From Chamaelirium japonicum (taxonomy: Eukaryota; Streptophyta; Magnoliopsida; Liliales; Melanthiaceae): a DNA stretch of 64,000 bases. Positions 4,444-64,000 of the stretch are shown here, piece by piece. The stretch lies in assembly GCA_947650365.1 (NCBI GenBank), contig CANTAL010000138.1, forward strand, positions 372,001 through 436,000, read 5' to 3'. The stretch's first letter is position 1. Every line of letters starts with the position of its first letter. The notes below the pieces were generated by a model. The model worked only from the letters and a program-made list of their open reading frames with translations, searched no databases and had not been told where the DNA came from. The translations under genes were made by a program, and so were the position numbers.

Positions 4444-5842
4444 ATGAATGAAATAGAATGGATCATACGAATGAAATAGAATGGATCGTACTAAGGAATT
4501 AGAATGGATCGTATGAATGAATTAGAATGGATACATTTGTGCGAATGAATTCGAATAGATCGTGCGAATGAATTAGAATGGATTGTACGAATGAATTAGA
4601 ATGGATCGTACGAATGAAATAGAATGGATCGTACGAATGAATTAGAATGGATACATTCGTGCAAAAGAAATAGAATGGATTGTATGAATGAATTAGAATG
4701 GATTGTGTGAATGAATTAGAATGGATCATACGAATGAATTAGAATGGATACATTCGTGTGAATGAATTAGAATGGATCGTGCGAATGAATTAGAATGGAT
4801 CGTACGAATGATTTAGAATGGTACGTATGAATGAATTAGAATGGATCGTGCGAATGAATTAGAATGGATCGTGCGAATGAATTAGAATGGATCGTACGAA
4901 TGAATTAGAATGGATCGTATGAATGAATTAGATTGGATCGTATTAATGAATTAGAATGGATCGTACGAATGAATTAGAATAGATCGTACGAATGAATTAG
5001 AATGGATACGAATGGATCGTACGAATGAGTAAGAATGGATCGTACGAATGAAATAGAATGGATTGTACGAATGAATTAGAATGGATACATTCGTGCGAAT
5101 GAATTAGGATGGACCGTATCAATGAATTAGAATGGATCGTACGGATGAATTAGAATGGATTGAATTAGAATGAATCGTACGAATGAATTAGAATGAATCA
5201 TACCGTACGAATGAATTAGAATGGATCATACGAAGGAGTTAGAATGGATCGTACGAATGAATTAGAATGGATCGTACGAAGGAATTAGAATGGATCGTAC
5301 GAAGGAATTAGAATGGATAGTACGAATGAATTAGAATGGATACCTTCGTGCAAATGAATTAGAATGGATTGTACGAATGAGTAAGAATGGATCGTACGAA
5401 TGAAATAGAATGGATCGTATGAATGAATTAGAATGGATCGTGCGAATGAATTAGAATGGATCGTGCGAATGAATTAGAATGGATCGTACGAATGAAATAG
5501 AATGGATTGTACGAAAGAGATAGAATGGATCGTATGAATGAATTAGAATAGATTGTGCGAATGAATTAGAATGGATCGTACGAATGAATTAGAATGGATC
5601 GTACGAATGAATTAGAATGGATCGTATGAATGAATTAGAATGGATCGTGCGAATGAATTAGAATGGATCGTACGAATGAAATAGAATGGATACATTCGTG
5701 CGAATGAATTAGAATGGATCATATGAATGAATTAGAATGGATCGTTTGAGTGAATGCGAATGGATCGTGCGAATGAATTAGAATGGATTGTACGAATGAA
5801 TTAGAATGGATCGTACGAATGAATTAGAATGGATACATTCGT
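4444..5842 (-). repeat. R block 4
   Basis: Reverse units. It contains the shortened form GGATTGAATTAGAATG followed by the CATACCG marker at 5199, a pair that recurs in many R blocks. It ends at J1 (ATACATTCGTGCGAATCCAT, dyad 5837-5848). Confidence 0.92.
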
Positions 5843-8067
5843 GCGAATCCATTCTATTTCATTCGCACGATCCATTCTAATTCATTCGCACGATCCATTC
5901 TAATTCATTCATGCGATCCATTCTAATTCATTCGTACGAACCATTCTAATTCATTCGTACGATCCATTCTAATTCATTCGCACAATCTATTCTAATTCAT
6001 TCGTACGATCCATTCTAATTCATTCGCACGATCCATTCTAATTCATTCATACGATCCATTCTATTTCATTCGTACGATCCATTCTTACTCATTCGTACGA
6101 TCCATTCTAATTCATTTGCACGAAGGTATCCATTCTAATTCATTCGTACTATCCATTCTAATTCCTTCGTACGATCCATTCTAATTCCTTCGTACGATCC
6201 ATTCTAATTCATTCGTACGATCCATTCTAATTCATTCGTACGATCCATTCTAATTCCTTTGTATGATCCATTCTAATTCATTCGTACGGTATGATTCATT
6301 CTAATTCATTCGTACGATCCATTCTAATTCAATCCATTCTAATTCATTCGTACGATTCATTCTAATTCAATCCATTCTAATTCATTCGTACGATCCATTC
6401 TTACTCATTCGTACGATCCATTATAATTCATTCGCACGAATGAATCCATTCTAATTCATTCGTATGATCCATTCTAATTCATTCGCATGAATGTATCCAT
6501 TCTAATTCATTCGTACGATCCATTCTATCTCATTCGTACAATCCATTCTATTTCATTCGTACGATCCATTCTAATTCATTCGCACGATCCATTCTAATTC
6601 ATTCGCATGATCCATTCTAATTCATTCGTACGATCGATTCTAATTCATTCGTACGATCCATTCTAATTCATTCGTACGATCCATTCTAATTCATTCGCAC
6701 AATCTATTCTTATTCATTCGTACGAATGAATTTATTCGTACGATCCATTCTAATTCCTTCGTAAGATCCATATTCTAATTCTTTCGTACGATCCATTCTA
6801 ATTCATTCGCACGATCCATTCTAATTTATTCATACGATCCATTCTAATTCATTCGTACGATCCATTCTAATTCATTCATACGATCCATTCTAATTCATTC
6901 GCACAATCTATTCTAATTCATTCGTACTATGATTCATTCTAATTCATTCGTACGATTCATTCTAATTCAATCCATTCCAATTCCTTCGTACGATCCATTC
7001 TAATTCATTCGTACGATCCATTCTAATTCATTCGCACGATCCATTCTAATTCATTCGTACGATCCATTCTATTTCATTCATATGATCCATTCTAATTCAT
7101 TCATACGATCAATTCTAATTCATTCGAACGATCCATTCTAATTCATTCGCATGATCCATTCTAATTCATTCGAACGATCGATTCTAATTCATTCATACGA
7201 TCCCTTCTAATTCATTCGCACGAATGTATCCATTCTAATTCATTCGTACGATCCATTCTAATTCATTCATATGATCCATCCTAATTCATTCGCATGAATG
7301 TATCCATTCTAATTCATTCGTACAATCCATTCTATTTCATTCGTACGATCCATTCTTACTCATTCGTACGATCCATTCGTATCCATTCTAATTCATTCGT
7401 ACGATCTATTCTAATTCATTCGTACGATCCATTCTAATTCATTAATACTATCCAATCTAATTCATTCATACGATCCATTCTAATTCATTCGTACGGTCCA
7501 TTCTAATTCATTCGCACGATCCATTCTAATTCATTCACACGATCCATTCTAATTCATTCATACGATCCATTCTAATTCATTCGTACGATCCATTCTAATT
7601 CATTCATACGATCCATTCTAATTCATTCATATGATCCATTCTAATTCATTCGTACGGTATGATTCATTCTAATTCATTCGTACGATTCATTCTAATTCAA
7701 TCCATTCTAATTCATTCGTACGATCCATTCTATTTCATTCGTACGATCCATTCTAATTCATTCATACGATCCATTCTAATTCATTCGTACGATCCATTCT
7801 AATTCATTCGTACAATCCATTCTAATTCATTCACACGATCCATTCGCATTCACTCAAACGATCCATTCTAATTCATTCATATGATCCATTCTAATTCATT
7901 CGCACGAATGTATCCATTCTAATTCATTCGTACGATCCATTCTAATTCATTTGTATGAATGTATCCACTCTAATTTATTCATACGATCCATTCTAATTCA
8001 TTCGCACGAATGTATCCATTCCAATTCATTCGTACGATCAATTCTAATTCATTCGCACGATCTATTC
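5843..8067 (+). repeat. F block 4
   Basis: About 95 forward units with GGTATG markers near 6288 and 7657, each followed by the 15-bp short unit TTCAATCCATTCTAA. A perfect 20-bp palindrome, ATTCATTCGTACGAATGAAT, lies at 6712-6731 without an orientation switch. It ends abruptly at TATTCGAGAATGG (about 8065). Confidence 0.92.
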
Positions 8068-8361
8068 GAGAATGGATTGTATTAATGAATTAGAATGGAT
8101 CGTGCGAATGAATTAGAATGGATCATAGGAATGAGTAAGAATGGATCGTGCGAATGAATTAGAATGGATCATATGAATGAATTAGAATGGATCGTATGAA
8201 TGAATTAGAATGGATCGTACGAATGAATTCGAATGGATCGTACGAATGAATTAGAATGGATCGTTTGAGTGAATGCGAATGGATCGTGTGAATGAATTAG
8301 AATGGATTGTACGAATGAATTAGAATGGATCGTACGAATGAATTAGAATGGATACATTCGT
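8068..8361 (-). repeat. R block 5
   Basis: Short reverse block of about 12 units ending in J1 (dyad 8356-8367). The final 100 bp resemble the end of R block 4, including the TTTGAGTGAATGCG variant near 8264. Confidence 0.9.
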
Positions 8362-8477
8362 GCGAATCCATTCTATTTCATTCGTACGATCCATTCTAAT
8401 TCATTCGCACGATCCATTCTAATTCATTCATACGATCCATTCTAATTCATTCGTACTATCCATTCTAATTCATTTGT
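8362..8477 (+). repeat. F block 5 (five units)
   Basis: Only 116 bp of forward units between two R blocks. The left edge is J1 and the right edge is CATTTGTGCGAATG (8471-8484). It is one of the shortest blocks and looks like the remnant of a longer F block cut back by a second switch. Confidence 0.88.
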
Positions 8478-8750
8478 GCGAATGAATTAGAATGGATCAT
8501 ACGAATGAGTAAGAATGGATCGTACGAATGAAATAGAATGGATTGTACGAATGAATTAGAATGGATCGTACGAATGAATTAGAAAAGATTGTATGAATGT
8601 ATTAGAATGGATACATTCGTGCGAATGAATTAGAATGGATCGTACGAATGAATTAGAATAGATCGTGCGAATGAATTAGAATGGATCGTACGAATGAATT
8701 AGAATTTATTGTGCGAATGAATTAGAATGGATCGTATGAATGAATTAGAT
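8478..8750 (-). repeat. R block 6
   Basis: About 12 reverse units. The right boundary (GAATTAGATTATGATCC, about 8750) has no clear dyad and is found nowhere else in the window. Confidence 0.88.
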
Positions 8751-11700
8751 TATGATCCATTTTATTTCATTCGTATGATCCATTCTAATTCCTTCGTACA
8801 ATCTAATTCATTCATACGATCCATTCTAATTCATTCGCATGAATGTATCCATTCAAATTCATTCGTACGATCCATTCTAATTCATTCGCACGATCTATTC
8901 TAATTCATTCGTACGATCCATTCTAATTCATTTATACGATCCAATCTAATTCATTCATACAATCCATTCTAATTCATTTGCACGAATTTATCCATTCTAA
9001 TTCATTCGTACGATCCATTCTAATTCATTCGCACAATCTATTCTAATTCATTCGCACAATCTATTCTAATTCATTCGTACAATCCATTCGAATTCATTTG
9101 TACGATCCATTCTAATTCATTCGTACGATTCATTCTAATTCAATCCATTCAAATTCATTCGTACGATCCATTCTTACTCATTCGTACGATCCATTCTAAT
9201 TCATTCGCACGAATGAATCCATTCTAATTCATTCGTATGATCCATTCTAATTCATTCGCATGAATATATCCATTCTAATTGATTCGTACGATCCATTCTA
9301 ATTCATAAGTACGATCCATTCTAATTCATTCAAACGATCCATTCTAATTCATTCGTATGATCCATTCTAATTCATTCGCACGAACCATTATAATTCATTC
9401 GCACGATCCATTCTAATTCATTTGTACGAATGTAGCCACTCTAATTCATTCGTACGATTCATTCTAATTCAATCCATTCTAATTCATTCGTACGATCCAT
9501 TCTTACTCATTCGTACGATCCATTCTAATTCATTCGCACGAATGAATCCATTCTAATTCATTCGTATGATCCATTCTAATTCATTCGCATGAATGTATCC
9601 ATTCTAATTCATTCGTACGATCCATTCTATCTCATTCGTACAATCCATTCTATTTCATTCGTACGATCCATTCTAATTCATTCGCACGATCCATTCTAAT
9701 TCATTCGCATGATCCATTCTAATTCATTCGTACGATCGATTCTAATTCATTCATACGATCCATTCTAATTCATTCACACGAATGTATCCATTCTAATTCA
9801 TTCGTACGATCCATTCTAATTCATTCGTACGATCCATTCTTACTCATTCGTACGATCCATTCTAATTCAATCATACGATCCAATCTAATTCATTCATACG
9901 ATCCATTCTAATTCATTCGCACAATCTATTCTAATTCATTCATACGATCCATTCTAATTTATTCGCACGATCCATTCTAATTCATTCATACGATCCATTC
10001 TAATTCATTCATATGATCCATTCTAATTCATTCGCACGATCCATTCTTACTCATTCGTACGATCCATTCTAATTCATTCGTACTATCCATTCTAATTCAT
10101 TCATACGATCCATTCTATTTCATTCGTACGATCCATTCTTACTCATTCGTACGATCCATTCTAATTCATTTGCACGAAGGTATCCATTCTAATTCATTCG
10201 TACTATCCATTCTAATTTTTTCGTACGATCCATTCTAATTCCTTCGTACGATCCATTCTAATTCATTCGTACGATCCATTCTAATTCATTCGTACGATCC
10301 ATTCTAATTCATTCGCACGATCCATTCTAATTCATTCGCACGATCCATTCTAATTCATTCGTACGATCCATTCTAATTCATTCATTCGTACGATCCATTC
10401 TAATTCATTTGCACGAAGGTATCCATTCTAATTCATTCGTACTATCCATTCTAATTTTTTCGTACGATCCATTCTAATTCCTTCGTACGATCCATTCTAA
10501 TTCATTCGTACGATCCATTCTAATTCTTTCGTACGATCCATTCTAATTCATTCGTACAATCCATTCTAATTCATTCGCACGATCCATTCGCATTCACTCA
10601 AACGATCCATTCTAATTCATTCATATGATCCATTCTAATTCATTCGCACGAATGTATGCATTCTAATTCATTCGTACGATCCATTCTAATTCATTTGTAC
10701 GAATGTATCCACTCTAATTCATTCATACGATCCATTCTAATTCATTCGCACGAATGTATCCATTCCAGTTCATTCGTACGATCCATTCTAAATCATTCGC
10801 ACAATCTATTCTAATTCATTCGTACGATCAATTCTAATTCATTAGCATGATCCATTCTAATTCATTCGTACTATCCATTCTAATTCCTTCGTACGATCCA
10901 TTCTAATTCCTTCGTATCCATTCTAATTCACTCATACGATCCATTCTAATTCATTCATACGATCCATTGTAATTCATTCGCATGAATGTATCCATTCTAA
11001 TTTATTCGTACGATCCATTCTAATTCATTCGCACAATCTATTCTAATTCATTCGTGCGAATGAATCCATTCTAATTCATTCGTATGATCCATTCTAATTC
11101 ATTCGCATGAATGTATCCATTCTAATTCATTCGTACGATCCATTCTATCTCATTCGTACAATCCATTCTATTTCATTCCTACGATCCATTCTAATTCATT
11201 CGCACGATCCATTCTAATTCATTCGTATGATCCATTCTAATTCATTCGTACGATCGATTCTAATTCATTCATACGATCCATTCTAATTCATTCGCACGAA
11301 TGTATCCATTCTAATTCATTCGTACGATCCATTCTAATTCATTTGCACGATCCATTCTAATTCATTCATACGATCCATTCTATTTCATTCGTACGATCCA
11401 TTCTTACTCATTCGTACGATCCATCCTAATTCATTTGCACGAAGGTATCCATTCTAATTCATTCGTACTATCCATTCTAATTCCTTCGTACGATCCATTC
11501 TAATTCCTTCGTACGATCCATTCTAATTCATTCGTAAGATCCATTCTAATTCATTCGTACGATCCATTCTAATTCCTTCGTATGATCCATTCTAATTCAT
11601 TCGTACGGTATTATTTATTCTAATTCATTCGTACGATTCATTCTAATTCAATCCATTCTAATTCATTCGTACGATCCATTCTAATTCATTCGTACAATCC

Positions 11701-12599
11701 ATTCTAATTCATTCGTACGATTCATTCTAATTCAATCCATTCTAATTCATTCGTACGATCCATTCTTACTCATTCGTACGATCCATTCTAATTCATTCGC
11801 ACGAATGAATCCATTCTAATTCATTCGTATGATCCATTCTAATTCATTCGCATCAATGTATCCATTCCAATTCATTCGTACGATCCATTCTAATTCATTC
11901 GCACAATCTATTCTAATTCATTCGTACGATCCATTCTAATTCATTCGCACAATCTATTCTAATTCATTAGTACGATCCATTCTAATTCATTCGTACGACC
12001 CATTCTAATTCATTAGCACGATCCAAATTCATTTATCCATACGATCTATTCTATTTCATTCGTACGATCCATTCTTATCGCACGATCCATTCTAATTAAT
12101 TCGCATGATCCATTCTCCATTCTAATTCCTTCGTACGATCCATTCTAATTCTTTCGTATCCATTCTAATTCACTCATACGATCGATTCTAATTCATTCAT
12201 ACGATCCATTCTAATTCATTCGCATGAATGTATCCATTCTAATTCAATCGTACGATCCATTCTAATTCATTCGCACAATCTATTCTAATTCATTCATACG
12301 ATCCATCCTAATTCATTCGCACAAATGTATCCATTCTAATTCATTCGTACAATCCATTCTATTTCATTCGTACGATCCATTTTTACTCATTCGTACGATC
12401 CATTTGTATCCATTCTAATTCATTCGTACGATCTATTCTAATTCATTCGTACGATCCATTCTAATTCATTAATACGATCCAATCTAATTCATTCGTACGA
12501 TCCATTCTAATTCATTCGCACGATCCATTCTAATTCATTCGCACGATCCATTCTAATTCATTCATACGATCCATTCTAATTCATTCGTACGATCCATTC
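8751..12599 (+). repeat. F block 6, 3.8 kb
   Basis: A long forward run. It holds several 28-bp units with CATTCGCACGAATGAATCC (for example 9535, 11800), a 239-bp direct duplication (10144-10550), a GGTATT variant of the GGTATG marker at 11608, and the CCAAATTCATTTATCC marker at 12023. It ends in the 12-bp dyad CCATTCTAATGG (12594-12605). Confidence 0.93.
10144..10550 (+). repeat. Local direct duplication, offset 239 bp
   Basis: TGCACGAAGG occurs at 10171 and 10410, and the otherwise rare CTAATTTTTTCG at 10212 and 10451. The copy junction contains an extra CATT (TTCATTCATTCG, about 10378), which accounts for the offset not being a multiple of 23. Confidence 0.88.
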
Positions 12600-14122
12600 T
12601 AATGGATACATTCGTGCGAATGAATTAGAATGGATCGTATGAATGAATTAGATTGGATCGTATGCATGAATTAGAATGGATCGTGCGAATGAATTAGAAT
12701 GGATCGTAGAAATGAATTAGAATGGATACATTCGTGCGAAAGAATTAGAATGGATCGTACGAATGAATTAGAATGGATCGTATGAATGAATTAGAATGGA
12801 TCGTGTGAATGAATTAGAATGGATACGAATGGATCATACGAATGAGTAAGAATTGATCGTACGAGTGAAATAGAATGGATTGTACGAATGAATTAGAATG
12901 GATACATTCGTGCGAATGAATTAGGATGGATCGTATGAATGAATTAGAATAGATTGTGCGAATGAATTAGAATGGATCGTACGAATGAATTAGAATGGAT
13001 ACATTCATGCGAATGAATTAGAATGGATCGTATGAATGAATTAGAATGGATCGTATGAGTGAATTAGAATGGATACGAAGGAATTAGAATGGATCGTACG
13101 AATGAATTAGAATGGATACATTCGTGCGAATTAATTAGAATGGATCGTATGAATGAATTAGAATCGATCGTAAGAATGAATTAGAATGGATCACGCGAAT
13201 GAATTAGAATGGATCGTGCGAATGAATTAGAATGGATCGTACGAATGAAATAGAATGGATTGTACGAATGAGATAGAATGGATCGTACGAATGAATTAGA
13301 ATGGATAATTCATGCGAATGAATTTGAATGGATTATACGAATGAATTAGAATGGATTCATTCGTGCGAATGAATTAGAATGGATCGTACGAATGAGTAAG
13401 AATGGATCGTACGAATGAATTAGAATGGATTGTACGAATGAATTAGAATGGATCATACGAATGAATTAGAATGGATTGAATTAGAATGAATCGTACGAAT
13501 GAATTAGAATGAATCATACCGTACGAATGAATTAGAATGGATCATACGAAGGAATTAGAATGGATCGTGCGAATAAATTATAATGGAACGTATGAATGAA
13601 TTAGAATAGATTGTGCGAATGGATTAGAATGGATCATACGATTGAGTAAGAATGGATTGTACGAATGAAATAGAATAGATCGTACGAATGAATTAGAATG
13701 GATCATGCTAATGAATTAGAATTGATCGTACGAATGAATTAGAATAGATTGTGCGAATGAATTAGAATGGATCGTACGAATGAATTGGAATGGATACATT
13801 CGTGCGAATGAATTAGAATGGATCGTATGAATGAATTAGAGTGGATACATTCGTACAAATGAATTAGAATGGATCGTACGAATTAATTAGAATGGATACA
13901 TTCGTGCGAATGAATTAGAATGGATCATATGAATGAATTAGAATGGATCATTTGAGTGAATGCGAATGGATCGTGCGAATGAATTAGAATGGATTGTACG
14001 AATGAATTAGAATGGATCGTACGAATGAATTAGAATGGATACATTCGTGCGAATGAATTAGAATGGATTGTACGAATGAATTAGAATGGATCGTACGAAT
14101 GAATTAGAATGGATACATTCGT
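12600..14122 (-). repeat. R block 7
   Basis: Reverse units with the CATACCG marker at 13515 and a partial reverse cassette near 13590-13713. A 28-bp unit with GGATTCATTCGTGCGAATG lies near 13350. It ends at J1 (dyad 14117-14128). Confidence 0.92.
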
Positions 14123-14500
14123 GCGAATCCATTCTATTTCATTCGTACGATCCATTCTAATTCATTCGCACGATCCATTCTAATTCATTCATACGATCCA
14201 TTCTAATTCATTCGTACGATCCATTCTAATTCATTTGTACGATCCATTCTAATTCATTCGCACAATCTATTTTAATTCATTCATACGATCCATTCTAATT
14301 CATTCGCACGATCCATTCTAATTCATTCATACGATCCATTCTATTTCACTCAAACGATCCATTCTAATTCATTCATATGATCCATTCTAATTCTTTTGCA
14401 CGAATGTTTCCATTCTAATTCATTCGTTCGATCCATTCTATTTCATTCGTACGATCCATTCTAATTCATTCGCACGATCCATTCTAATTCATGCATACGA
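14123..14500 (+). repeat. F block 7
   Basis: Forward units. From about 14204 it belongs to the first copy of the 2,851-bp tandem duplication. The rare forms CATTTCACTCAAACG and TTCTTTTGCACG occur here. It ends at junction class J4 (CATGCATACGATGAGTAAG). Confidence 0.92.
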
Positions 14501-15503
14501 TGAGTAAGAATGGATCGTACAAATGAATTAGAATGGATTGAATTAGAATGAATCGTACGAATGAATTAGAATGGATACATTCGTGCAAAAGAATTAGAAT
14601 GGATCATATGAATGAATTAGAATGGATCGTTTGAGTGAAATAGAATGGATCGTATGAATGAATTAGAATGGATCGTGCGAATGAATTAGAATGGATCGTA
14701 CGAATGAATTAGAATAGATTATGCGAATGAATTAGAATGGATCGTACGAATGAATTAGAATGGATCGTACGAATGAATTAGAATGGATCGTATGAGTGAA
14801 GTAGAATGGATCGTACGAATGAATTTGAATGGATCGTACGAAGGAATTAGAATGGATCGTACGAAGGAATTAGAATGGATCATGCTAATGAATTAGAATT
14901 GATCGTACGAATGAATTAGAATAGATTGTGCGAATGAATTAGAATGGATCGTACGAATGAAATAGAATGGATCGTACGAATGAATTAGAATGGATACATT
15001 CGTGCGAATGAATTAGAATGGATCATTTCAATGAATTAGAATGGATCGTTTGAGTGAATGCGAATGGATCGTGCGAATGAATTAGAATGGATTGTACGAA
15101 TGAATTAGAATGGATCGAATGAATTAGAATGGATCGTACGAATGAAATAGAATGGATCGTACGAATGAATTGGAATGGATACATTCGTGCGAATGAATTA
15201 GAATGGATCGTATGAATGAATTAGAGTGGCTACATTCGTACAAATGAATTAGAATGGATCGTGCGAATGAATTAGAATGGATCGTGCGAATGAATTAGAA
15301 TGGATCGTATGAATGAATTAGATTGGATCGTATTAATGAATTAGAATGGATCGTGCGAATGAATTAGAATGGATCGTACGAATGAATTAGAATGGATCGT
15401 ACGAATGACTTAGAATGGATCGTCCGAATTAATTAGAATGGATCATGCGAATGAATTAGAATGGATTGAATTAGAATGAATCGTACGAATGAGTAAGAAT
15501 GGA
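14501..15503 (-). repeat. R block 8
   Basis: Reverse units inside the first 2,851-bp copy. It ends in J7, the perfect 14-bp palindrome GAATGGATCCATTC (15497-15510), where R and F units meet with no extra base. Confidence 0.93.
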
Positions 15504-16520
15504 TCCATTCTATTTCATTCGTACGATCCATTCTAATTCATTCATACGATCCTTTCTAATTCATTCGCACGATCCATTCTAATTCATTAATACGATCCAA
15601 TCTAATTCATTCATACGATCCATTCTAATTCATTCGTACGATCCATTCTAATTCATTCGCATGATCCATTCTAATTCATTCGCACGATCCATTCTAATTC
15701 ATTTGTACGAATGTAGCCACTCTAATTCATTCATACGATCCATTCTAATTCATTCACACGAATGTATCCATTCCAATTCATTCGTACGATCCATTCTATT
15801 TCATTCGTATGATCCATTCTAATTCATTCGATCCATTCAAATTCATTCGTACAATCCATTCTAATTCATTCGCACGATCCATTCGCATTCACTCAAACGA
15901 TCCATTCTAATTCATTCGTACGATCTATTCTAATTCATTCGTACGATCCATTCTAATTCATTCGTACGATTCATTCTAATTCAATCCATTCAAATTCATT
16001 CGTACGATCCATTCTTACTCATTCGTACGATCCATTCTAATTCATTCGCACGAATGAATCCATTCTAATTCATTTGTACGATCCATTCTAATTCATTCGT
16101 ACAATCTATTCTAATTCATTCGAACGATCCATTCTAAGTCATTCGTACGATCCATTCGAATTCATTCGTACGATCCATTCTAATTCATTCGCACGATCCA
16201 TTCTATTTCATTCGTACGATCCATTCTAATTCATTCGCACGAATGATCCATTCCAATTCATTCGTACGATCCATTCTAATTCATTCGCACAATCTATTCT
16301 AATTCATTCGTACGATCAATTCTAATTCATTCGCACGTATCCATTCTAATTCATTCATACGATCCTTTACAATCCATTCTAATTCATTCACACGATCCAT
16401 TCTTACTCATTCTTACGATCCATTCTAACTCATTCGTACGATCCATTCTAATTCATTCTAATTCAATCCATTCTAATTCATTCACACAATCCATTCTAAT
16501 TCATTCGTACGATCCACTCA
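15504..16520 (+). repeat. F block 8
   Basis: Forward units in the first 2,851-bp copy, including CGCATTCACTCAAACG near 15885 and the 28-bp form with GAATGAATCC near 16050. It ends at J5 (GATCCACTCACATACGAATA). Confidence 0.93.
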
Positions 16521-16683
16521 CATACGAATAAATTAGAATGAATTAGAATGGATTGTGTGAATGAATTAGAATGGATCGTATGAATGAATTAGAATGGATC
16601 GTGCGAATGAATTAGAATGGATCGTGCGAATGAATTAGAATATGGATCGTACGAAGGAATTAGAATGGATCGTACGAATGAAT
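16521..16683 (-). repeat. R block 9 (short)
   Basis: About seven reverse units between J5 and J3. The J3 boundary is GAATTCGAATGTATCCTTTC (16680 onward), a switch built on an EcoRI-type GAATTC palindrome. Confidence 0.92.
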
Positions 16684-17351
16684 TCGAATGTATCCTTTCT
16701 AATTCATTCGTACGATCCATTCTAATTCCTTCGTACGATCCATTCTAATTCATTCGTACGATCCATTCTAATTCATTCGCACGATCCATTCTAATTCATT
16801 CATACGATCCATTCTATTTCATTCATACGATCCATTCTAATTCATTCATACGATCTATTCTAATTCTTTCGCACGAATGTATCCATTCTAATTCATTCGT
16901 ACGATCCATTCTAATCCATTCGCACGATCCATTCTAATTCATTCTTACAATCCATTCTAATTCTTTTGCATGAATGTATCCATTCTAATTCATTCGTTCG
17001 ATCCATTCTAATTCATTCGTACGATCCATTCTAATTCATTCGCACGATCCATTTTAATTCATTCGTACGATCCATTCTAATTCATTCGTACGATCCATTC
17101 TAATTCATTCGCATAATCTATTCTAATTCATTCGTACGATCCATTCTAATTCATTCGCACGATCCATTCTAATTCATTCATACGATCCATTCTATTTCAC
17201 TCAAACGATCCATTCTAATTCATTCATATGATCCATTCTAATTCTTTTGCACGAATGTTTCCATTCTAATTCATTCGTTCGATCCATTCTATTTCATTCG
17301 TACGATCCATTCTAATTCATTCGCACGATCCATTCTAATTCATGCATACGA
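16684..17351 (+). repeat. F block 9
   Basis: Forward units spanning the boundary between the two 2,851-bp copies (about 17054). The 3' third repeats F block 7 with a few differences. It ends at the second J4 junction, exactly 2,851 bp after the first. Confidence 0.93.
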
Positions 17352-18354
17352 TGAGTAAGAATGGATCGTACAAATGAATTAGAATGGATTGAATTAGAAT
17401 GAATCGTACGAATGAATTAGAATGGATACATTCGTGCAAAAGAATTAGAATGGATCATATGAATGAATTAGAATGGATCGTTTGAGTGAAATAGAATGGA
17501 TCGTATGAATGAATTAGAATGGATCGTGCGAATGAATTAGAATGGATCGTACGAATGAATTAGAATAGATTATGCGAATGAATTAGAATGGATCGTACGA
17601 ATGAATTAGAATGGATCGTACGAATGAATTAGAATGGATCGTATGAGTGAAGTAGAATGGATCGTACGAATGAATTAGAATGGATCGTACGAAGGAATTA
17701 GAATGGATCGTACGAAGGAATTAGAATGGATCATGCTAATGAATTAGAATTGATCGTACGAATGAATTAGAATAGTTTGTGCGAATGAATTAGAATGGAT
17801 CGTACGAATGAAATAGAATGGATCGTACGAATGAATTAGAATGGATACATTCGTGCGAATGAATTAGAATGGATCATTTCAATGAATTAGAATGGATCGT
17901 TTGAGTGAATGCGAATGGATCGTGCGAATGAATTAGAATGGATTGTACGAATGAATTAGAATGGATCGAATGAATTAGAATGGATCGTACGAATGAAATA
18001 GAATGGATCGTACGAATGAATTGGAATGGATACATTCGTGCGAATGAATTAGAATGGATCGTATGAATGAATTAGAGTGGCTACATTCGTACAAATGAAT
18101 TAGAATGGATCGTGCGAATGAATTAGAATGGATCGTGCGAATGAATTAGAATGGATCGTATGAATGAATTAGATTGGATCGTATTAATGAATTAGAATGG
18201 ATCGTGCGAATGAATTAGAATGGATCGTACGAATGAATTAGAATGGATCGTACGAATGACTTAGAATGGATCGTTCGAATTAATTAGAATGGATCATGCG
18301 AATGAATTAGAATGGATTGAATTAGAATGAATCGTACGAATGAGTAAGAATGGA
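17352..18354 (-). repeat. R block 10 (copy of R block 8)
   Basis: Repeats 14501-15503 at an offset of 2,851 with scattered substitutions (for example TAGATTGTG to TAGTTTGTG near 17773 and CGTCCG to CGTTCG near 18272). It ends in the second J7 palindrome (18348-18361). Confidence 0.95.
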
Positions 18355-52833: not shown

Positions 52834-53073
52834 ATGATCCATTCTAATTCATTCGTACGATCTATTCTATTTCATTCGTACAATCCATTCTTACTCAATC
52901 GTTTGATCCATTCTAATCCATTCGCACAATCTATTCTAATTCATTCGTACGATCCATTCTATTTCATTCGTACGATCCATTCTAATTCATACGATCCATT
53001 CTATTTCATTCATACGATCCATTTTAATTCATTCGCACGATCCATTCTAATTCATTCATACGATCCATTCTAA
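52834..53073 (+). repeat. 240-bp cassette, forward copy
   Basis: Full length; pairs with 45080-45319. It has TACCATGATCC at the left edge and CGTTTGATCC in place of CGTATGATCC. Confidence 0.93.
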
Positions 53074-53659
53074 TTCATTCGCACGATCCATTCTCCACTC
53101 TAATTCCTTCGTACTATCCATTCTATTTCATTCATACGATCCATTCTAATTCATTCAAACGATCTATTCTAATTCTTTCGCACGAATGTATCCATTCTAA
53201 TTCATTCGTACGATCCATTCTATTTCATTCGCACGATCCATTCTAATTCATTAATACGATCCGTTCTAATTCATTCGTACGATCCATTCTAATTCATTCG
53301 CACGATCCATTCTAATTCATTAATACGATCCATTCTAATTCATTCGCGCGATCCATTCGAATTCATTCATACGATCCATTCTAATTTATTCGCACGATCC
53401 ATTCTAATTCATTCATATGATCCATTCTAATTCATTCGCACAATCCATTCTAATTCTTTTGCACGAATGTATCCATTCTAATTCATTCGTACGATCCATT
53501 CTAATTCATTCGTATGATCTATTCTAATTCATTCGCATGATCCATTATAATTCATTCATACGATCCAATCTAATTCATTCGTACGATCCATTCTAATTCA
53601 TTCGCACGAATGTATCAACTCTAATTCATTCGTACGATCCATTCTAATTCATTCATACA

Positions 53660-55237
53660 TGTACGAATGAATTAGAATGGATACATTCGTGCGAATGAAT
53701 TAGAATGGATCGTATGAATGAATTAGGTTGGATCGTATGCATGAATTAGAATGGATCGTGCGAATGAATTAGAATGGATCGTACGAATGAATTAGAATGG
53801 ATCGAACGAATGAATTAGAATGGATACATTCGTGCAAAAGAATTAGAATGGATTGTATGAATGAATTAGAATGGATCGTGCGAATGAATTAGAATGGATC
53901 GTACGAATGAATTAGAATGGATACATTCGTGCAAAAGAATTAGAATAGATCGTATGAATGAATTAGAATGGATCGTATGAATGAAATAGAATGGATCGTA
54001 CGAAGGAATTAGAATGGAGAATGGATCGTGCGAATGAATTAGAATGGATCGTATGAATGAATTAGAATGGATCGTGCGAATGAATTAAAATGGATCGTAT
54101 GAGTGAAATAGAATGGATCGTATGAATTAGAATGGATCGTACAAATGAAATAGAATGGATCGTACGAATGAATTAGAATAGATTGTGCGAATGGATTAGA
54201 ATGGATCATACGATTGAGTAAGAATGGATTGTACGAATGAAATAGAATAGATCGTACGAATGAATTAGAATGGATCATGCTAATGAATTAGAATGGATTG
54301 TTCAAATGAATTAGAATAGATTGTGCAAATGAATTAGAATGGATCGTACGAATGAATTAGAAAGGATACATTCGAACGAATGAACTAGAATGGATCGTAT
54401 AAGTGTGAATGAATTAGAATGGATCGTGCGAATGAATTAGAATGGATCGTGCGAATGAATTAGAATGGATCGTACGAATGAAATCGAATGGATTGTACGA
54501 ATGAGATAGAATGGATCGTACGAATGAATTAGAATGGATACATTCATGCGAATGAATTAGAATGGATCATACGAATGAATTAGAATGGATTCATTCGTGC
54601 GAATGAATTAGAATGGATCGTACGAATGAGTAAGAATGGATCGTACGAATGAATTAGAATGGATTGAATTAGAATGAATCGTATGAATGAATTAGAATGG
54701 ATCGTACGAATGAATTAGAATGGATCGTACGAATGAATTAGAATGGATTGAATTAGAATGAATCGTACGAATGAATTAGAATGAATCATACCGTACGAAT
54801 GAATTAGAATGGATCATACGAAGGAATTAGAATGGATCGTACGAATGAATTAGAATGGATCGTACGAATGAATTAGAATGGATCGTACGAAGGAATTAGA
54901 ATGAATCGTACGAAGGAATTAGAATGGATAGTACGAATGAATTAGAATGGATACCTTCGTGCAAATGAATTTGAATGGATCGTATAAATGAGTAAGAATG
55001 GATCGTACGAATGAATTAGAATGGATCGTATGAATGAATTAGAATGGATCATGCGAATGAATTAGAATGGATAGTACGAATGAATTAGAATAGATTGTGC
55101 GAATGAATTAGAATGGATCATACGAATGAATTAGAATGGATCGTACGAATGAATTAGAATGGTTCATATGAATGAATTAGAATGGATCGTGCGAATGAAT
55201 TAGAATGGATCGTACGAATGAAATAGAATGGATTTGC
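53660..55237 (-). repeat. R block 24 (copy of R block 23)
   Basis: Repeats 45952-47483 at offsets of 7,708 to 7,754. It is 46 bp longer, which is two units. Cassette 54039-54278. It ends at a J1 variant, ATTTGCACGAAT. Confidence 0.95.
54039..54278 (-). repeat. 240-bp cassette, reverse copy 5
   Basis: Full-length inverted copy; pairs with 46331-46570. Confidence 0.93.
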
Positions 55238-55579
55238 ACGAATGTATCCATTCTAATTCATTCGTACGATCCATTCTAATTCATTCGTACAATCCATTCT
55301 AATTCATTCGCACGATCCATTCGCATTCACTCAAACGATCCATTCTAATTCATTCATATGATCCATTCTAATTCATTCGCACGAATGTATCCATTCTAAT
55401 TCATTCGTACAATCCATTCTAATTCATTTGTACGAATGTATCCACTCTAATTCATTCATACGATCCATTCTAATTCATTCGCACGAATGTATCCATTCCA
55501 ATTCATTCATACGATCCATTCTAATTCATTCGCACAATCTATTCTAATTCATTCGTACGATCAATTCTAATTCATTAGC

Positions 55580-55819
55580 ATGATCCATTCTAATTCATTC
55601 GTACGATCTATTCAATTTCATTCGTACAATCCATTCTTACTCAATCGTATGATCCATTCTAATCCATTCGCACAATCTATTCTAATTCATTCGTACGATC
55701 CATTCTATTTCATTCGTACGATCCATTCTAATTCATACGATCCATTCTATTTCATTCATACGATCCATTTTAATTCATTCGCACGATCCATTCTAATTCA
55801 TTCATACGATCCATTCTAA
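55580..55819 (+). repeat. 240-bp cassette, forward copy
   Basis: Full length, with CTATTCAATTTC replacing CTATTCTATTTC; 342 bp after J1. Confidence 0.94.
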
Positions 55820-57170
55820 TTCATTCGTATGATGCATTCTAATTTCTTCGTATGATCTATTCTAATTCCTTCGTACGATCCATTCTAATTCCTTCGTAAG
55901 ATCCATTCAAATTCATTCGCACGAATCTATCCATTCTAATTCATTAGTACGATCCATTCTAATTCATTCGCACGATCCATTCTAATTCATTAATACGATC
56001 CAATCTAATTCATTCATACGATCTATTCTAATTCATTCGCACGAATATATCCTTTCTAATTCATTCGTACGATCCATTCTAATTCATTCGCACAATCTAT
56101 TCTAATTCATTAGTACGATCCATTCTAATTCATTCGTACGATCCATTCTAATTCATTAGCACGATCCAAATTCATTTATCCGTACGATCTATTCTATTTC
56201 ATTCGTACAATCCATTCTTATCGCACGAACCATTCTAATTCATTCGCACGATCCATTCTCCATTCTAATTCCTTCGTACGATTCATTCTAATTCCTTCGT
56301 ATCCATTCTAATTCACTCATACGATCCATTCTAATTCATTCATACGATCCATTCTAATTCATTCGCATGAATGTATCCATTCTAATTCATTCGTACGATC
56401 CATTTTAATTCATTCGCACAATCTATTCTAATTCATTCATACGATCCATCCTAATTCATTCGCACGAATGTATCCATTCTAATTCATTCGTACAATCCAT
56501 TCTATTTCATTCGTACGATCCATTCTTACTCATTCGTACGATCCATTCGTATCCATTCTAATTCATTCGTACGATCTATTCTAATTCATTCGTACGATCC
56601 ATTCTAATTCATTAATACGATCCAATCTAATTCATTCATACGATCCATTCTAATTCATTCGTACGATCCATTCTAATTCATTCGCACGATCCATTCTAAT
56701 TCATTCGCACGATCCATTCTAATTCATTCATACGATCCATTCTAATTCATTCGTACGATCCATTCTAATTCATTCGCACGATCCAATCTAATTCATTCAT
56801 ACGATCCATTCTAATTCATTCGTACGATCCATTCTAATTCATTCGCACAATCCATTCTAATTCATTCGCACGATCCATTCTAATTCATTCGTACGATCCA
56901 TTCTAATTCATTCGTACGATTCATTCTAATTCAATCCATTCTAATTCATTCGCACAATCCATTCTAATTCATTCGTTCGATCCATTCTAATTCAGTCGTA
57001 TGATCCATTCTAATTCATTTGTACGAATGTATCCACTCTAATTCATTCATACGATCCATTCTAATTCATTCGCACGAATGTATCCATTCCAATTCATTCG
57101 TACGATCCATTCTAATTCATTCGCACAATCTATTCTAATTCATTCGTACGATCAATTCTAATTCATTAGC

Positions 57171-57368
57171 ATGATCCATTCTAATTCATTCGTACGATCT
57201 ATTCTATTTCATTCGTACAATCCATTCTTACTCAATCGTATGATCCATTCTAATCCATTCGCACAATCTATTCTAATTCATTCGTACGATCCATTCTATT
57301 TCATTCGTACGATCCATTCTATTTCATTCATACGATCCATTTTAATTCATTCACACGATCCATTCTAA
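57171..57368 (+). repeat. 240-bp cassette, shortened forward copy
   Basis: Reads like the others until CTATTTCATTCGTACG, then lacks the 19-bp unit and its neighbour. The loss equals one 19-bp plus one 23-bp unit, as expected for slippage or unequal exchange. Confidence 0.92.
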
Positions 57369-58569
57369 TTCAATGATACGATCCATTCTAATTCATTCGT
57401 ACGATCCATTCTAATTTCTTCGTATGATCTATTCTAATTCCTTCGTACGATCCATTCTAATTCCTTCGTACGATCCATTCAAATTCATTCGCACGAATCT
57501 ATCCATTCTAATTCATTCGTACGATCCATTCTAATTCATTCGCATGATCCATTCTAATTCATTAATACGATCCAATCTAATTCATTCATACGATCTATTC
57601 TAATTCATTCGTACGAATATATCCTTTCTAATTCATTCGTACGATCCATTCTAATTCATTCGCACAATCTATTCTAATTCATTAGTACGATCCATTCTAA
57701 TTCATTCGTACGATCCATTCTAGTTCATTAGCACGATCCAAATTCATTTATCCGTACGATCTATTCTATTTCATTCGTACGATCCATTCTTATCGCACGA
57801 TCCATTCTAATTCATTCGCACGATCCATTCTTCATTCTAATTCCTTCGTACGATCCATTCTAATTCCTTCGTATCCATTCTAATTCACTCATACGATCCA
57901 TTCTAATTCATTCATATGATCCATTCTAATTCATTCGCATGAATGTATCCATTCTAATTCATTCGTACGATCCATTCTAATTCATTCGCACAATCTATTC
58001 TAATTCATTCATACGATCCATCCTAATTCATTCGCACGAATGTATCTATTCTAATTCATTCGTACAATCCATTCTATTTCATTTGTACGATCCATTCTTA
58101 CTCATTCGTGCGATCCATTCGTATCCATTCTAATTCATTCGTACGATCTATTCTAATTCATTCGTACGATCCATTCTAATTCATTAATACGATCCAATCT
58201 AATTCATTCATACGATCCATTCTAATTCATTCGCACGATCCATTCTAATTCATTCGCACGATCCATTCTAATTCATTCATACGATCTATTCTAATTCATT
58301 CATACAATCCATTCTAATTCTTTTGCACGAATGTATCCATTCTAATTCATTCGTACGATCCATTCTAATTCATTCATATGATCTATTCTAATTCATTCGC
58401 ATGATCCATTATAATTCATTCATACGATCCAATCTAATTCATTCGTACGATCCATTCTAATTCATTCATACGATCCAATCTAATTCATTCGTACGATCCA
58501 TTCTAATTCATTCGCACGATTGTATCAACTCTAATTCATTCGTACGATCCATTCTAATTCATTCATACA

Positions 58570-58841
58570 TGTACGAATGAATTAGAATGGATACATTCGT
58601 GCGAATGAATTAGAATGGATCGTATGAATGAATTAGATTGGATCATATGCATGAATTAGAATGGATCGTGCGAATGAATTAGGATGGATCGTACGAATGA
58701 ATTAGAATGGATCGAACGAATGAATTAGAATGGATAGATTCGTGCAAAAGAATTAGAATGGATTGTATGAATGAATTAGAATGGATCGTGCGAATGAATT
58801 AGAATGGATCGTCTGAATGAATTAGAATGGATACATTCGAA
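58570..58841 (-). repeat. R block 25
   Basis: Third copy of the opening of R blocks 23 and 24 (TCATATGCATG near 58644), cut after about 270 bp. It ends at J3 in inverted form (ATACATTCGAATTCATTCG). Confidence 0.93.
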
Positions 58842-59440
58842 TTCATTCGTACGATCCATTCTAATTCCTTCGTACAATCCATATTCTAATTCATTCGCAC
58901 AATCCATTTTAATTCGTTTGTACGATCCATTCTAATTCATTCGCACAATCTATTCTAATTCATTCGTACGATCCATTCTAATTCATTCGCACGATCCATT
59001 CTAATTCATTCATACGATCCATTCTATTTCATTCGTACGATCCATTCTTACTCATTCGTACGATCCATTCTAATTCATTTGCACGAAGGTATCCATTCTA
59101 ATTCATTCGTACTATGCATTCTAATTCCTTCGTACGATCCATTCTAATTCCTTCGTACGATCCATTCTAATTCATTCGTACGATCCATTCTAATTCATTC
59201 ATACGATCCATTCTAATTCCTTCGTATGATCCATTCTAATTCATTCATACAATCCGTTCTAATTCTTTTGCACGAATGTATCCATTCTAATTCATTCGTT
59301 CGATCCATTCTAATTCATTCGTACGATCCATTCTAATTCATTCGCACGATCCATTCTAATTCATTCGCACGATCCATTCTAATTCATTCGTACGATCTAA
59401 TTCATTCGCACGAATGTATCCATTCTAATTCATTCGTACA
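58842..59440 (+). repeat. F block 25
   Basis: About 26 forward units, including CGAAGG near 59087. It ends at J2 in the CGTACATGTATG orientation (59437-59444), opposite to the J2 at 58569. Confidence 0.92.
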
Positions 59441-61852
59441 TGTATGAATGAATTAGAATGGATCGTACGAATGAATTAGAGTTGATACATTCGTGCAAAT
59501 GAATTAGAATGGATCGTATGAATGAATTAGATTGGATCGTATGCATGAATTAGATTGGATCATGCGAATGAATTAGAATGGATCGTGCGAATGAATTAGA
59601 ATGGATCGTACGAATGAATTAGAATGGATCGTATGAATGAATTAGATTGGATCGTATTAATGAATTAGAATGGATCGTACGAATGAATTAGAATAGATCG
59701 TACGAATGAATTAGAATGGATACGAATGGATCGTACGAATGAGTAAGAATGGATCGTACGAATGAAATAGAATGGATTGTACGAATGAATTAGAATGGAT
59801 ATATTCGTGCGAATGAATTAGGATGGATCGTATGAATGAATTAGAATAGATTGTGCGAATGAATTAGAATAGATCGTACGAAGGAATTACAATGGATTGT
59901 ATGAATGAATTAGAATAGATCGTATGAATGAATTAGAATGGATCGTGCGAATGAATTAGAATGGATAGTATGAATGAAATAGAATGGATCGTATGAATTA
60001 GAATGGATTGTACGAATGAATTAGAATGGATCGTGCGTCGTACGAATGAATTAGAATGGATCATATTAATGAATTAGAATGGATCGTATGAATGAATTAG
60101 AATGGATCGTGCGAATGAATTAAAATGGATCGTATGAATGAAATAGAATGGATCGTATGAATTAGAATGGATCGTACGAATGAAATAAAATGGATCGTAC
60201 GAATGAATTAGAATAGATTGTGCGAATGGATTAGAATGGATCATACGATTGAGTAAGAATGGATTGTACGAATGAAATAGGATAGATCGTACGAATGAAT
60301 TAGAATGGATCGTATGAATGAATTAGAATAGATCGTACGAATGAATTAAAATGGATCGTATAAATGAATTAGAATGGATCGTACGAATGAGTAAGAATGG
60401 ATCGTACGAATAAAATAGAATGGATCGTATGAATGAATTAGAATGGATCGTGCGAATGAATTAGAATGGATCGTACGAATGAATTAGAATAGATTGTGCG
60501 AATGAATTAGAATGGATCGTACGAATGAATTAGAATGGATCGTACGAATGAATTAGAATGGATCGTGCGAATGAATTAGAATTGATCGTACGAATGAATT
60601 AGAATGGATCGTCCGAATGAATTAGAATGGATCGTTCGAATGAATTAGAATAGATTGTGCGAATGAATTAGAATGGATCGTACGAATGAATTAGAAAGGA
60701 TACATTCGTGCGAATGAATTAGAATGGATCGTATGAGTGTGAATGAATTAGAATGGATCGTGCGAATGAATTAGAATGGATCGTATTAATGAATTAGAAT
60801 GGATCGTGCGAATGAATTAGAATGGATCGTACGAATGAGTAAGAATGGATCGTGCGAATGAATTAGAATGGATCATATGAATGAATTAGAATGAATCGTA
60901 TGAATGAATTAGAATGGATCGTGCGAATAAATTAGAATGGATCGTATGAATGAATTAGAATAGATTGTGCGAATGAATTAGAATGGATCGTACGAATGAA
61001 TTAGAATGGATACATTCGTGCGAATGAATTAGAATGGATCGTATGAATGAATTAGAATCGATCGTACGAATGAATTAGAATGGATCATGCGAATGAATTA
61101 GAATGGATCGTGCGAATGAATTAGAATGGATCGTACGAATGAAATAGAATGGATTGTACGAATGAGATAGAATGGATCGTACGAATGAATAAGAATGGAT
61201 ACATTCATGCGAATGAATTAGAATAGATCATACGAATAAATTAGAATGGATTCATTCGTGCGAATGAATTAGAATGGATCGTACGAATGAGTAAGAATGG
61301 ATCGTACGAATGAATTAGAATGGATTGAATTAGAATGAATCGTACGAATGAATTAGAATGGATCGTACGAATGAATTAGAATGGATCGTACGAATGAATT
61401 AGAATGGATTGAATTAGAATGAATCGTACGAATGAATTAGAATGAATCATACCGTACGAATGAATTAGAATGGATCATACGAAGGAATTAGAATGGATCG
61501 TACGAATGAATTAGAATGGATCGTACAAAGGAATTAGAATGGATCGTACGAAGGAATTAGAATGGATAGTATGAATAAATTAGAATGGATACCTTCGTGC
61601 AAATGAATTAGAATGGATCGTACGAATGAGTAAGAATGGATCGTACGAATGAAATAGAATGGATCGTATGAATGAATTAGAATGGATCGTGCGAATGAAT
61701 TAGAATGGATCGTATGAATGAATTAGAATAGATTGTGCGAATGAATTAGAATGGATCGTACGAATGAATTAGAATGGATCGTACGAATGAATTAGAATGG
61801 ATCGTGCGAATGAATTAGAATGGATCGTACGAATGAAATAGAATGGATTCGC
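59441..61852 (-). repeat. R block 26, 2.4 kb
   Basis: Reverse arm with a degenerate cassette (60074-60313), CATACCG at 61448 and GATAGTATG at 61565. It is about 0.8 kb longer than R blocks 23 and 24. It ends at J1 (61847-61858). Confidence 0.93.
60074..60313 (-). repeat. 240-bp cassette, reverse copy 6 (degenerate)
   Basis: All landmarks are present in reverse, but with AAATAAAATGG and ATAGGATAG changes and CGTATG replacing CATGC at the end. There is no uninterrupted frame here, showing that the frame is not conserved in this family. Confidence 0.88.
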
Positions 61853-64000
61853 ACGAATGTATCCATTCTAATTCATTCGTTCGATCCATTCTAATTCATT
61901 CGTACAATCCATTCTAATTCATTCGCACGATCCATTCGCATTCACTCAAACGATCCATTCTAATTCATTCATATGATCCATTCTAATTCATTCGCACGAA
62001 TGTAGCCATTCTAATTCATTCGTACGATCCATTCTAATTCATTTGTACGAATGTATCCACTCTAATTCATTCATACGATCCATTCTAATTCATTCGCACG
62101 AATGTATCCATTCCAATTCATTCGTACGATCCATTCTAATTCATTCACACAATCTATTCTAATTCATTCGTACGATCAATTCTAATTCATTAGCATGATC
62201 CATTCTAATTTATTTGTACGATCTATTCTATTTCATTCGTACAATTCATTCTTACTCAATCGTGTGATCCATTCTAATCCATTCGCACAATCTATTCAAA
62301 TTCATTCGTACGATCCATTCTATTTCATTCGTACGATCCATTCTAATTTATACGATCCTTTCTATTTCATTCATACGATCCATTTTAATTCATTCGCACG
62401 ATCCATTCTAATTCATTCATACGATCCATTCTAATTCATTCGTACGATCCATTCTAATTTTTTCGTATGATCTATTCTAATTCCTTCGTACGATCCATTC
62501 TAATTCCTTCGTACGATCCATTCAAATTCATTCGCACGAATCTATCCATTCTAATTCATTCGTACGATCCATTCTAATTCATTCGCGCGATCCATTCTAA
62601 TTCATTAATACGATCCAAGAAAATTCATTCATACGATCTATTCTAATTCATTCGCACGAATATATCCTTTCTAATTCATTCGTACGATCCATTCTAATTC
62701 ATTCGCACAATCTATTCTAATTCATTAGTACGATCCATTCTAATTTATTCGTACGATCCATTCTAATTCATTAGCTCGATTCAAATTCATTTATCCGTAC
62801 GATCTATTCTATTTCATTCGTACGATCCATTCTTATCGCACGATCCATTCTAATTCATTCGCACGATCCATTCTCCATTCTAATTCCTTCGTACGATCCA
62901 TTCTAATTCCTTCATATCCATTCTAATTCACTCATACGATCCATTCTAATTCATTCATACGATCCATTCTAATTCATTCGCATGAATGTATCCATTCTAA
63001 TTCATTCGTACGATCCATTCTAATTTATTCGCACAATCTATTCTAATTCATTTATACGATCCATCCTAATTCATTCGCACGAATGTATCCATTCTAATTC
63101 ATTCGTACAATCCATTCTATTTCATTCGTACGATCCATTCTTACTCATTCGTACGATCCATTCGTATCCATTCTAATTCATTTGTACGATCTATTCTAAT
63201 TCATTCTTACGATCCATTCTAATTTATTAATACGATCCAATCTAATTCATTCATACGATCCATTCTAATTCATTCGTACGATCCATTCTAATTCATTCGC
63301 ACGATCCATTCTAATTCATTCACACGATCCATTCTAATTCATTCATACGATCCATTCTAATTCATTCGTACTATCCATTCTAATTCATTCGCACGATCCA
63401 TTCTAATTCATTCGCACGAATGTATCCATTCTAATACATTCGTATGATCCATTCTAATTCATTCACACAATCCATTCTAATTCATTCATACAATCCATTC
63501 TATTTCTTTTGCACAAATGTATCCATTCTAATTCATTCGTACGATCCATTCTAATTCATTCGTACGATCTATTCTAATTTCTTCGTATGATCTATTCTAA
63601 TTCCTTCGTACGATCCATTCTAATTCCTTCGTACGATCCATTCAAATTAATTCGCACGAATCTATCCATTCTAATTCATTCGTACGATCAATTCTAATTC
63701 ATTCGCACGATCCATTCTAATTCAATAATACGATCCAATCTAATTCATTCATACGATCTATTCTAATTCATTCGCACGAATATATCCTTTCTAATTCATT
63801 CGTACGATCCATTCTAATTCATTCACACAATCTATTCTAATTCATTAGTACGATCCATTCTAATTCATTCGTACGAACCATTCTAATTCATTAGCACGAT
63901 CCAAATTCATTTATCCGTACGATCTATTCTATTTCATTCGTACGATCCATTCTTATCGCACGATCCATTCTAATTCATTCGCACGATCCATTCTCCATTC
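61853..64000 (+). repeat. F block 26 (continues beyond window)
   Basis: Fourth copy of the forward arm: cassette 342 bp after J1 (62195-62434) and the CCAAATTC marker 588 bp later (62783). A second CCAAATTC marker lies at 63903, about 1.1 kb on. The window ends within a TCTCCATTC form that also occurs near 62873. Confidence 0.93.
62195..62434 (+). repeat. 240-bp cassette, forward copy
   Basis: Full length, with TTTATTTGTACG, CGTGTGATCC and CCTTTCTATTTC changes; 342 bp after J1 and 588 bp before the CCAAATTC marker. Confidence 0.93.

Follow-up and report, generated by a model that had tools for sequence, protein, structure and literature searches.

J1, a recurrent head-to-head junction of the Chio holocentromere satellite, and its probable spread by copying in both directions

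The holocentromere satellite of Chionographis japonica, known as Chio1/Chio2, consists of monomers of 23 and 28 bp that lie 5 bp and one substitution apart (PMC10264360), and the passages of the two papers cited here (PMC10264360, PMC12722358) describe frequent changes of orientation along it, with forward and reverse arrays mixed. This report concerns a 64,000-nt stretch of the same plant's DNA (Chamaelirium japonicum, the Chionographis japonica of the satellite papers), namely positions 372001-436000 of an 833-kb contig designated C150 and hereafter called the window, and within it J1, a 30-bp junction at which reverse (R) monomers give way to forward (F) ones. In our reading, to which we give a probability of about 0.72, J1 is one old head-to-head joint that spread by copying in both directions, each copy reusing J1 and making new F-to-R joints.

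The closest known counterparts of J1 are the inversion sites in the satellites of the beetle Tribolium madens, where a few sites occur in thousands of near-identical copies, are (peri)centromeric and have predicted hairpins, as J1 does. The beetle satellites are unrelated to Chio, however, and form 'macro-dyads' mostly of two subarrays, whereas the domains around J1 are short and uneven (mean 995 bp and median 710 bp over the 204-kb region defined below); moreover, J1 is asymmetric and is seen in both orientations, unlike the Tribolium sites. The Chama satellite of Chamaelirium luteum, a centromere satellite from the sister genus, also has the 9-mer TTCGTACGA, and the section cited (PMC12722358) describes arrays of constant orientation, organized into a higher-order structure that extends for several hundred kb, unlike those of Chio. 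Fold-back inverted duplications in human DNA, large single events in the part of the source cited (PMC3907307), provide a candidate route to an inverted copy with one new joint, and their likeness to the present case is probed here only through the similarity of arms. For the spread of Chio itself, the C. japonica authors offer three possibilities in the passages cited: interlocus gene conversion, inversion with a single breakpoint inside the satellite, and circular DNA. The satellite, its mixture of strands and the existence elsewhere of conserved inversion sites are therefore already known. No account of J1 as a recurring junction, of its copy number, of the balance between its orientations or of the asymmetry between switch types described below was found in print, the C. 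japonica papers being covered in part and without their supplements; the passages and sections of the Chio papers covered (PMC10264360, PMC12722358) hold no recurrent junction, copy number, two orientations or switch asymmetry.

By tandem-repeat search and strand segmentation, the whole window (1..64000, no strand assigned) is one satellite array of 52 orientation domains, with monomer spacings of 23 bp in 2,167 of 2,726 cases and of 28 bp in 270. The 23-bp monomer is CATTCGTACGATCCATTCTAATT; the 28-bp variant carries a 5-bp insertion and one substitution, reading GGAT[ACATT]CGTGCGAATG against GGATCGTACGAATG in the 23-bp form, and contains the near-palindrome ATTCGTGCGAAT. The 9-mer TTCGTACGA, named in the Chio monomer and common to the Chama satellite in the passage cited (PMC12722358), occurs 510 times, 505 of them within F domains. 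That this satellite is the Chio1/Chio2 of C. japonica is near certain from the published descriptions, which it matches in monomer lengths, indel, 9-mer, strand mixing and an assembly size of about 1.5 Gb; the 8-bp dyad is likewise common to both. No open frame of at least 150 aa and no Rfam match at gathering score was found in the window, and searches of prokaryote genomes, viral contigs, phages and plasmids returned no match, as expected for plant DNA.

Read from the sequence, J1 (GGATACATTCGTGCGAATCCATTCTATTTC) leads from a reverse 28-bp (Chio2-type) monomer, GGATACATTCGTGCGAAT, into a forward 23-bp (Chio1-type) monomer, ...CCATTCTATTTC, and its asymmetric ATAC/GTAT arm is the Chio2 side, that is, the insertion of the 28-bp monomer. 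A search allowing up to three mismatches returned exactly 14 matches in the window, 6 on the plus strand (orientation A) and 8 on the minus strand (orientation B), against a chance expectation of 0.00 from 100 shuffles. When match positions are compared with the segmentation, all 14 sit at R-to-F switches. Copies in orientation A lie at 30..59 (two mismatches), 5831..5860, 8350..8379 (with an F domain of only 130 bp), 14111..14140, 25252..25281 (one mismatch) and 30731..30760, and those in orientation B at 1254..1283 (one mismatch), 33073..33102, 35129..35158 (2,056 bp past the preceding copy and, by self-match, inside a tandem duplication), 37411..37440, 42031..42060, 47466..47495 (two mismatches), 55220..55249 (one mismatch) and 61835..61864; those listed without mismatches are exact, so that nine are exact, three carry one mismatch and two carry two. 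The initial annotation had counted 26 R-to-F switches, which the segmentation reproduces alongside 25 F-to-R switches, and had placed J1 at 14 of them, six in one form and eight in its reverse complement. These counts hold, as does the relation between the two forms; its sequence readings stand as to the presence of all 14 copies and fail as to exactness in five, the copy at 30 lacking CTATTTC as had already been remarked. The breakpoint 7-mers CGAATCC (6) and GGATTCG (6) occur within the window at J1 only. Since an R-J1-F segment remains R-to-F when reversed, a flip is visible only through the small asymmetry of J1.

The flanks of these copies match in inverted alignment, and J1 in the window thus has one origin. 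Over the first 200 bp, A and B copies aligned after inversion have a mean identity of 0.894 for the 40 R-arm pairs and of 0.889 for the 48 F-arm pairs, against a median of 0.819 for phase-matched random flanks, and 22/40 and 20/48 pairs, respectively, lie above the random 99th percentile; without inversion the means are 0.841 and 0.828, and no pair exceeds that percentile. For each of the 13 copies testable in a 150-bp copy search, all 12 others are 93% or more identical to it along no fewer than 140 of the 150 bp, so that the flanks do not become unrelated beyond about 30 bp (the copy at 30, at the window edge, was omitted here and from the R-arm flank and tree counts). The earlier proposals that one original junction lies behind 14 of the 26 R-to-F switches, and that inverted copies have been made of the segments around it, are both supported by this alignment. 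A marker in the R arm lies at the same distance from the J1 core in 12 of the 13 testable copies, in both orientations, and about 73 bp further out in the copy at 14111. Extension by X-drop proved uninformative as a test of flanks, since random satellite arms extend far too. With 12 other copies in the window, as against a median of 16 and a mean of 20 for 150-bp stretches inside domains (n=500), J1 has a copy number ordinary for the array, and hitch-hiking on array turnover therefore remains as the null. Like J1, 133 intra-domain 30-mers have exactly nine exact copies in the window.

In the genome searched (1,518,659,071 bases in 3,253 contigs; the published primary assembly of C. japonica is given as 1,526,137,861 bp in 3,786 contigs in the section cited, PMC10264360), the J1 30-mer, a core followed by TATTTC, has 6,081 exact forward and 5,985 exact reverse occurrences, 12,066 in total, and its reversed-sequence control has 0. 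The core followed by TAATTC occurs exactly 221 + 286 times, whereas after CCATTC in the window TAATTC is about ten times commoner than TATTTC (1,571 vs 154). TATTTC is thus found on 12,066 of the 12,573 exact cores with either continuation, against 154 of 1,725 window monomers, and this linkage to the core despite the rarity of the variant in the window points to one founder across chromosomes. Together with the shared flanks near the window, the linked TATTTC suggests that J1 arose once. Loci chosen by position numbered 19 and covered 190 kb, 14 of them adjoining the window. Of the 103 R-to-F switches called in these loci, 52 are marked by J1 (28 A and 24 B copies), which never lies off a switch there; L015, with 7,500 N, was omitted from this switch count. 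A further 30 loci were chosen because they contain J1. In these, eight matches in L044-L048 (four distinct places on contig C2, as L046-L048 overlap) lie off called switches, and on contig C1 the flanks of J1 are different and the neighbouring domain of opposite orientation is often no more than ~43-52 bp long. Like the Tribolium sites, J1 is therefore one switch sequence in many near-identical copies, distinct from ordinary monomers, as the window, genome and by-place counts (14/14; 12,066; 52/103) indicate; it is not the centre of long two-subarray dyads. An apparent stretch of ~600 kb on C2 with plus-strand copies alone, among the matches listed, was not real, L041 and L044 carrying exact B copies. 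In L026, L027 and L028 (C1, ~28.0 and 30.65 Mb), J1 lies in a near-uniform R array with a 50-bp forward island, an arrangement seen three times, which we regard as a different J1-bearing higher-order unit.

The contiguous 204-kb region that includes the window (C150:302001-506000) holds 60 copies of J1, 30 A and 30 B, with neighbours alike in 32 of 59 cases. Pairs of these that are at least 98% identical over ~430 bp share their orientation in 30 cases and oppose each other in 24. The array around them behaves similarly: of 237 self-matches in the window (at least 150 bp and at least 95% identity), 112 are direct and 125 inverted, and 500 intra-domain windows of 150 bp returned 5,020 direct and 5,021 inverted matches, although in these self-match counts the matches overlap and are hence not independent. 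Several copying events are indicated by trees of the flanks, which are approximate given recombination between copies and in which the A copies as a single clade are rejected by the approximately unbiased (AU) test (p of 0.008 with the two arms together, 4.7e-5 with the R arm and 0.0045 with the F arm).

The two types of switch differ markedly in diversity. Over the 204 kb, with inserts excluded, 98 R-to-F switches fall into 7 kinds (the largest of 63, 59 of them J1 sites; inverse Simpson 2.2), whereas 98 F-to-R switches form 42 kinds, 25 of them singletons (inverse Simpson 15.8). With inserts included, the 102 R-to-F switches form 11 kinds (63, 19, 11, ...; inverse Simpson 2.3) and the 102 F-to-R switches 46, with 29 singletons (inverse Simpson 17.0), and F-to-R kinds outnumber R-to-F kinds in 15/15 clustering settings. 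The two-state segmentation is forced and so calls switches in non-satellite DNA too; 8 of the 204 switches fell in two inserts, one in L001 (C150 ~363-365 kb) and one in L014 (C150 ~497-502 kb), which were removed in the final count of kinds only, remaining within the 19-locus count, the arm-similarity test and the 15-setting test. These two stretches interrupt the array beside the window, lack satellite words and are possibly transposon insertions. As copies are not independent events, the asymmetry carries no P value. The second R-to-F family over the 204 kb (19 members) showed 87 orientation conflicts, and its orientation counts were not used.

The sequence of events that probably accounts for these results is as follows. 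J1 would have arisen once, as a head-to-head joint in the Chio satellite, and spread inside segments of very roughly 0.2-2.5 kb, which in the window and its surroundings were copied in either direction about equally often. Each copy would reuse J1 and make a new F-to-R joint at the old array, as the asymmetry in diversity suggests: when an R-J1-F segment is copied into an array of either strand, one R-to-F joint is duplicated and one F-to-R joint is created, as observed, whereas a simple inversion within uniform array creates two new joints, one per type, and should diversify both types equally. The most likely route may be a fold-back or a template switch to an inverted neighbour in the course of repair or replication; fold-back copying would invert J1 each time, and its expected trace is like arms at F-to-R joints. 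Across the 204 kb, the own arms of F-to-R switches are slightly more alike than crossed arms (P 0.015) and those of R-to-F switches are not (P 0.75), among arms of at least 250 bp, which retained 76/102 F-to-R and 78/102 R-to-F switches. The idea that J1 itself formed recently by its own arms folding back was rejected on the latter value and on the absence of the perfect fold-back palindrome from the window. A bolder generalization is that head-to-head junctions are the units of inheritance of this centromere, the founder dyad J1 repeatedly seeding inverted segments while tail-to-tail joints are improvised, so that strand pattern grows directionally rather than through inversion and the two switch types have different histories genome-wide; this we hold to be doubtful.

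Several observations weigh against the spread of a single J1 by copying in both directions. Four of the 19 Chio loci taken by place are without J1 (L014, about half satellite, L016, L017 and L018). Copies on C1 and C150 share only ~45 bp of flank, with a mean identity of 0.769 over +-200 bp, so that common origin there rests on the core and its linked variant. The in-register palindromic R-to-F junction TTAGAATGGATCGTACGATCCATTCTAA occurs at 2,878 places in the genome, among the matches listed on C1 only, and its 14-bp core has 0 occurrences in the window; the notion that in-register R-to-F palindromes never form is thus true of that core in the window and false genome-wide, and other centromere units may have another founder junction. 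The R-arm marker is also found unmutated at least seven times at places other than J1, and the flank trees are poorly resolved, with 2/11, 0/9 and 2/11 branches well supported. The nearest relative of a copy has the same orientation in 41 of the 60 copies in the 204 kb (P 0.007). Direct matches also prevail among the closest and longest window self-matches: 31 are direct and 16 inverted when identity reaches 97% (length at least 150 bp), and 14 and 4, respectively, when length reaches 600 bp (identity at least 95%); this direct lean of the youngest and longest matches is what tandem duplication would give. As to the asymmetry, it was measured in one 204-kb region, and the ranking by inverse Simpson, though not that by number of kinds, was reversed in 1/15 settings (2.2 vs 1.9). 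Finally, the fold-back signal in the arms is weak, with arms at inserts still included.

Among other explanations, the initial annotation favoured one large inversion or inverted expansion near 31-33 kb, which would have split a uniform series of J1 copies, having noticed that A is confined to the left and B almost wholly to the right. The positional pattern is real and modest: one cut point separates the orientations in 13/14 copies (shuffling P 0.0096), or in 11/12 (P 0.025) when a local tandem trio is collapsed, and ten consecutive B copies, of which seven belong to the window and the other three lie outside, form a modest local cluster (P 0.024). The B copy at 1254 nevertheless has A copies around it, the A copies do not form a clade, inverted left-right matches of at least 250 bp (152 in all) spread over 51 of 66 antidiagonal bands with at most 8 per band, J2, J3, K1 and K2 (other junction families, described below) show no such split, and the two orientations are intermingled across the 204 kb. 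As sole cause a single inversion is rejected on these grounds, and we consider it highly improbable, while one local inversion may have contributed to the split in the window. Flipping in place, whereby recombination between R and F arms as inverted repeats would turn J1 round without moving it, draws on the fact that inverted repeats flank many switches, such as 24239-24762 and 25290-25813 around the J1 copy at 25252. It predicts a two-sided signature in which the inner part is inverted and the flanks on either side of it stay direct. Of 436 inverted matches of at least 200 bp, 0 bore this signature, which led us to reject the idea, and 15 bore a one-sided form of it, fewer than the mean of 23.5 for 50 shifted controls; as short flips or later erosion could mask the signature, such flipping is best described as unlikely.

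Repeated independent formation of the same joint at a hotspot, the dyad of the 28-bp monomer, would suit both the near-palindrome of that monomer and the unrelated flanks of C1 copies beyond ~45 bp; the flanks common to copies in the window region speak against it for C150, as does the near-exclusive TATTTC on genomic cores, and it strikes us as very unlikely. A functional reading, in which J1 is retained for a hairpin or for protein binding in centromeric chromatin, as suggested for the Tribolium sites, could appeal to the number of exact copies, to the few R-to-F kinds and to the hairpins predicted when two copies were folded as single-stranded DNA (101 bases; -38 and -40 kcal/mol; z ~ -12). 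The K1 switch, however, folds similarly (-31.5, z -10.8), as expected of any strand switch; J1 has no more window copies than ordinary stretches, so that hitch-hiking suffices, and three fully satellite loci do without it, all of which makes retention by function quite unlikely. Least credible of all is an assembly artefact through fold-back chimeric reads or collapsed arrays, for which the location of the array on an 833-kb contig might be cited. Near-perfect in-register arms were found at none of the 48 switches measured out of 51, three with short domains being omitted (highest identity 0.941), J1 copies carry individual differences, the J1 places among the matches listed lie on the large contigs C1 and C2, and alternating orientation is reported by the C. 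japonica authors themselves in the passages cited.

Spread of J1 by copying in both directions bears on how satellite arrays switch strand and on how Chio reached ~100 centromere units. With ~12,000 exact copies of an asymmetric mark, J1 is a ready tracer, its flanks and orientation recording copying events. Should the asymmetry of switches prove general, it would count against inversion as the chief origin of strand changes and would allow fold-back and template-switch models to be tested from existing reads.

Besides J1, the window holds several smaller junction families. Because a first clustering linked the switches of each type into a single family, the families were named by inspection, with copy search and thresholded clustering as checks. 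The second R-to-F family of the window, J3 (16676..16706, minus strand), recurs at 19542, 28725 and 42739 in the same orientation and at 58830 in the opposite one, the pair 28725-58830 falling below the copy-search threshold. J2 (3289..3319, minus) recurs in one orientation only, at 20706 and 40654, and J4 (15487..15517, minus) has its second copy at 18353, within the same tandem duplication. Of the F-to-R families the largest in the window is K1 (19981..20011, plus), found in the same orientation at 33654, 35710 and 59442 and in the opposite one at 45953, 53661 and 58571, with 1,007 + 996 exact copies in the genome. K2 (14487..14517, plus) recurs at 17353 (same) and 25876 (opposite). K3 (16509..16539, plus), grouped partly by eye, includes 16524 and 19375 by copy search and, as further members that match each other, 31021 (same) and 42303 (opposite). 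Both orientations are therefore found for K1, K2, K3 and J3 and not for J2 and J4. A tandem duplication with a 2,056-bp shift (32701-35139 vs 34757-37191, 94.7%) contains J1 and K1. The longest and closest self-match listed is another tandem duplication, with a 2,851-bp shift (14127-17113 vs 16978-19964, 99.3% over 2,987 bp). A run-of-A variant, GCACGAAAAAACACGATCC, marks a K3-type switch in the inverted pair 30961-31090 and 42244-42373, ~11 kb apart.

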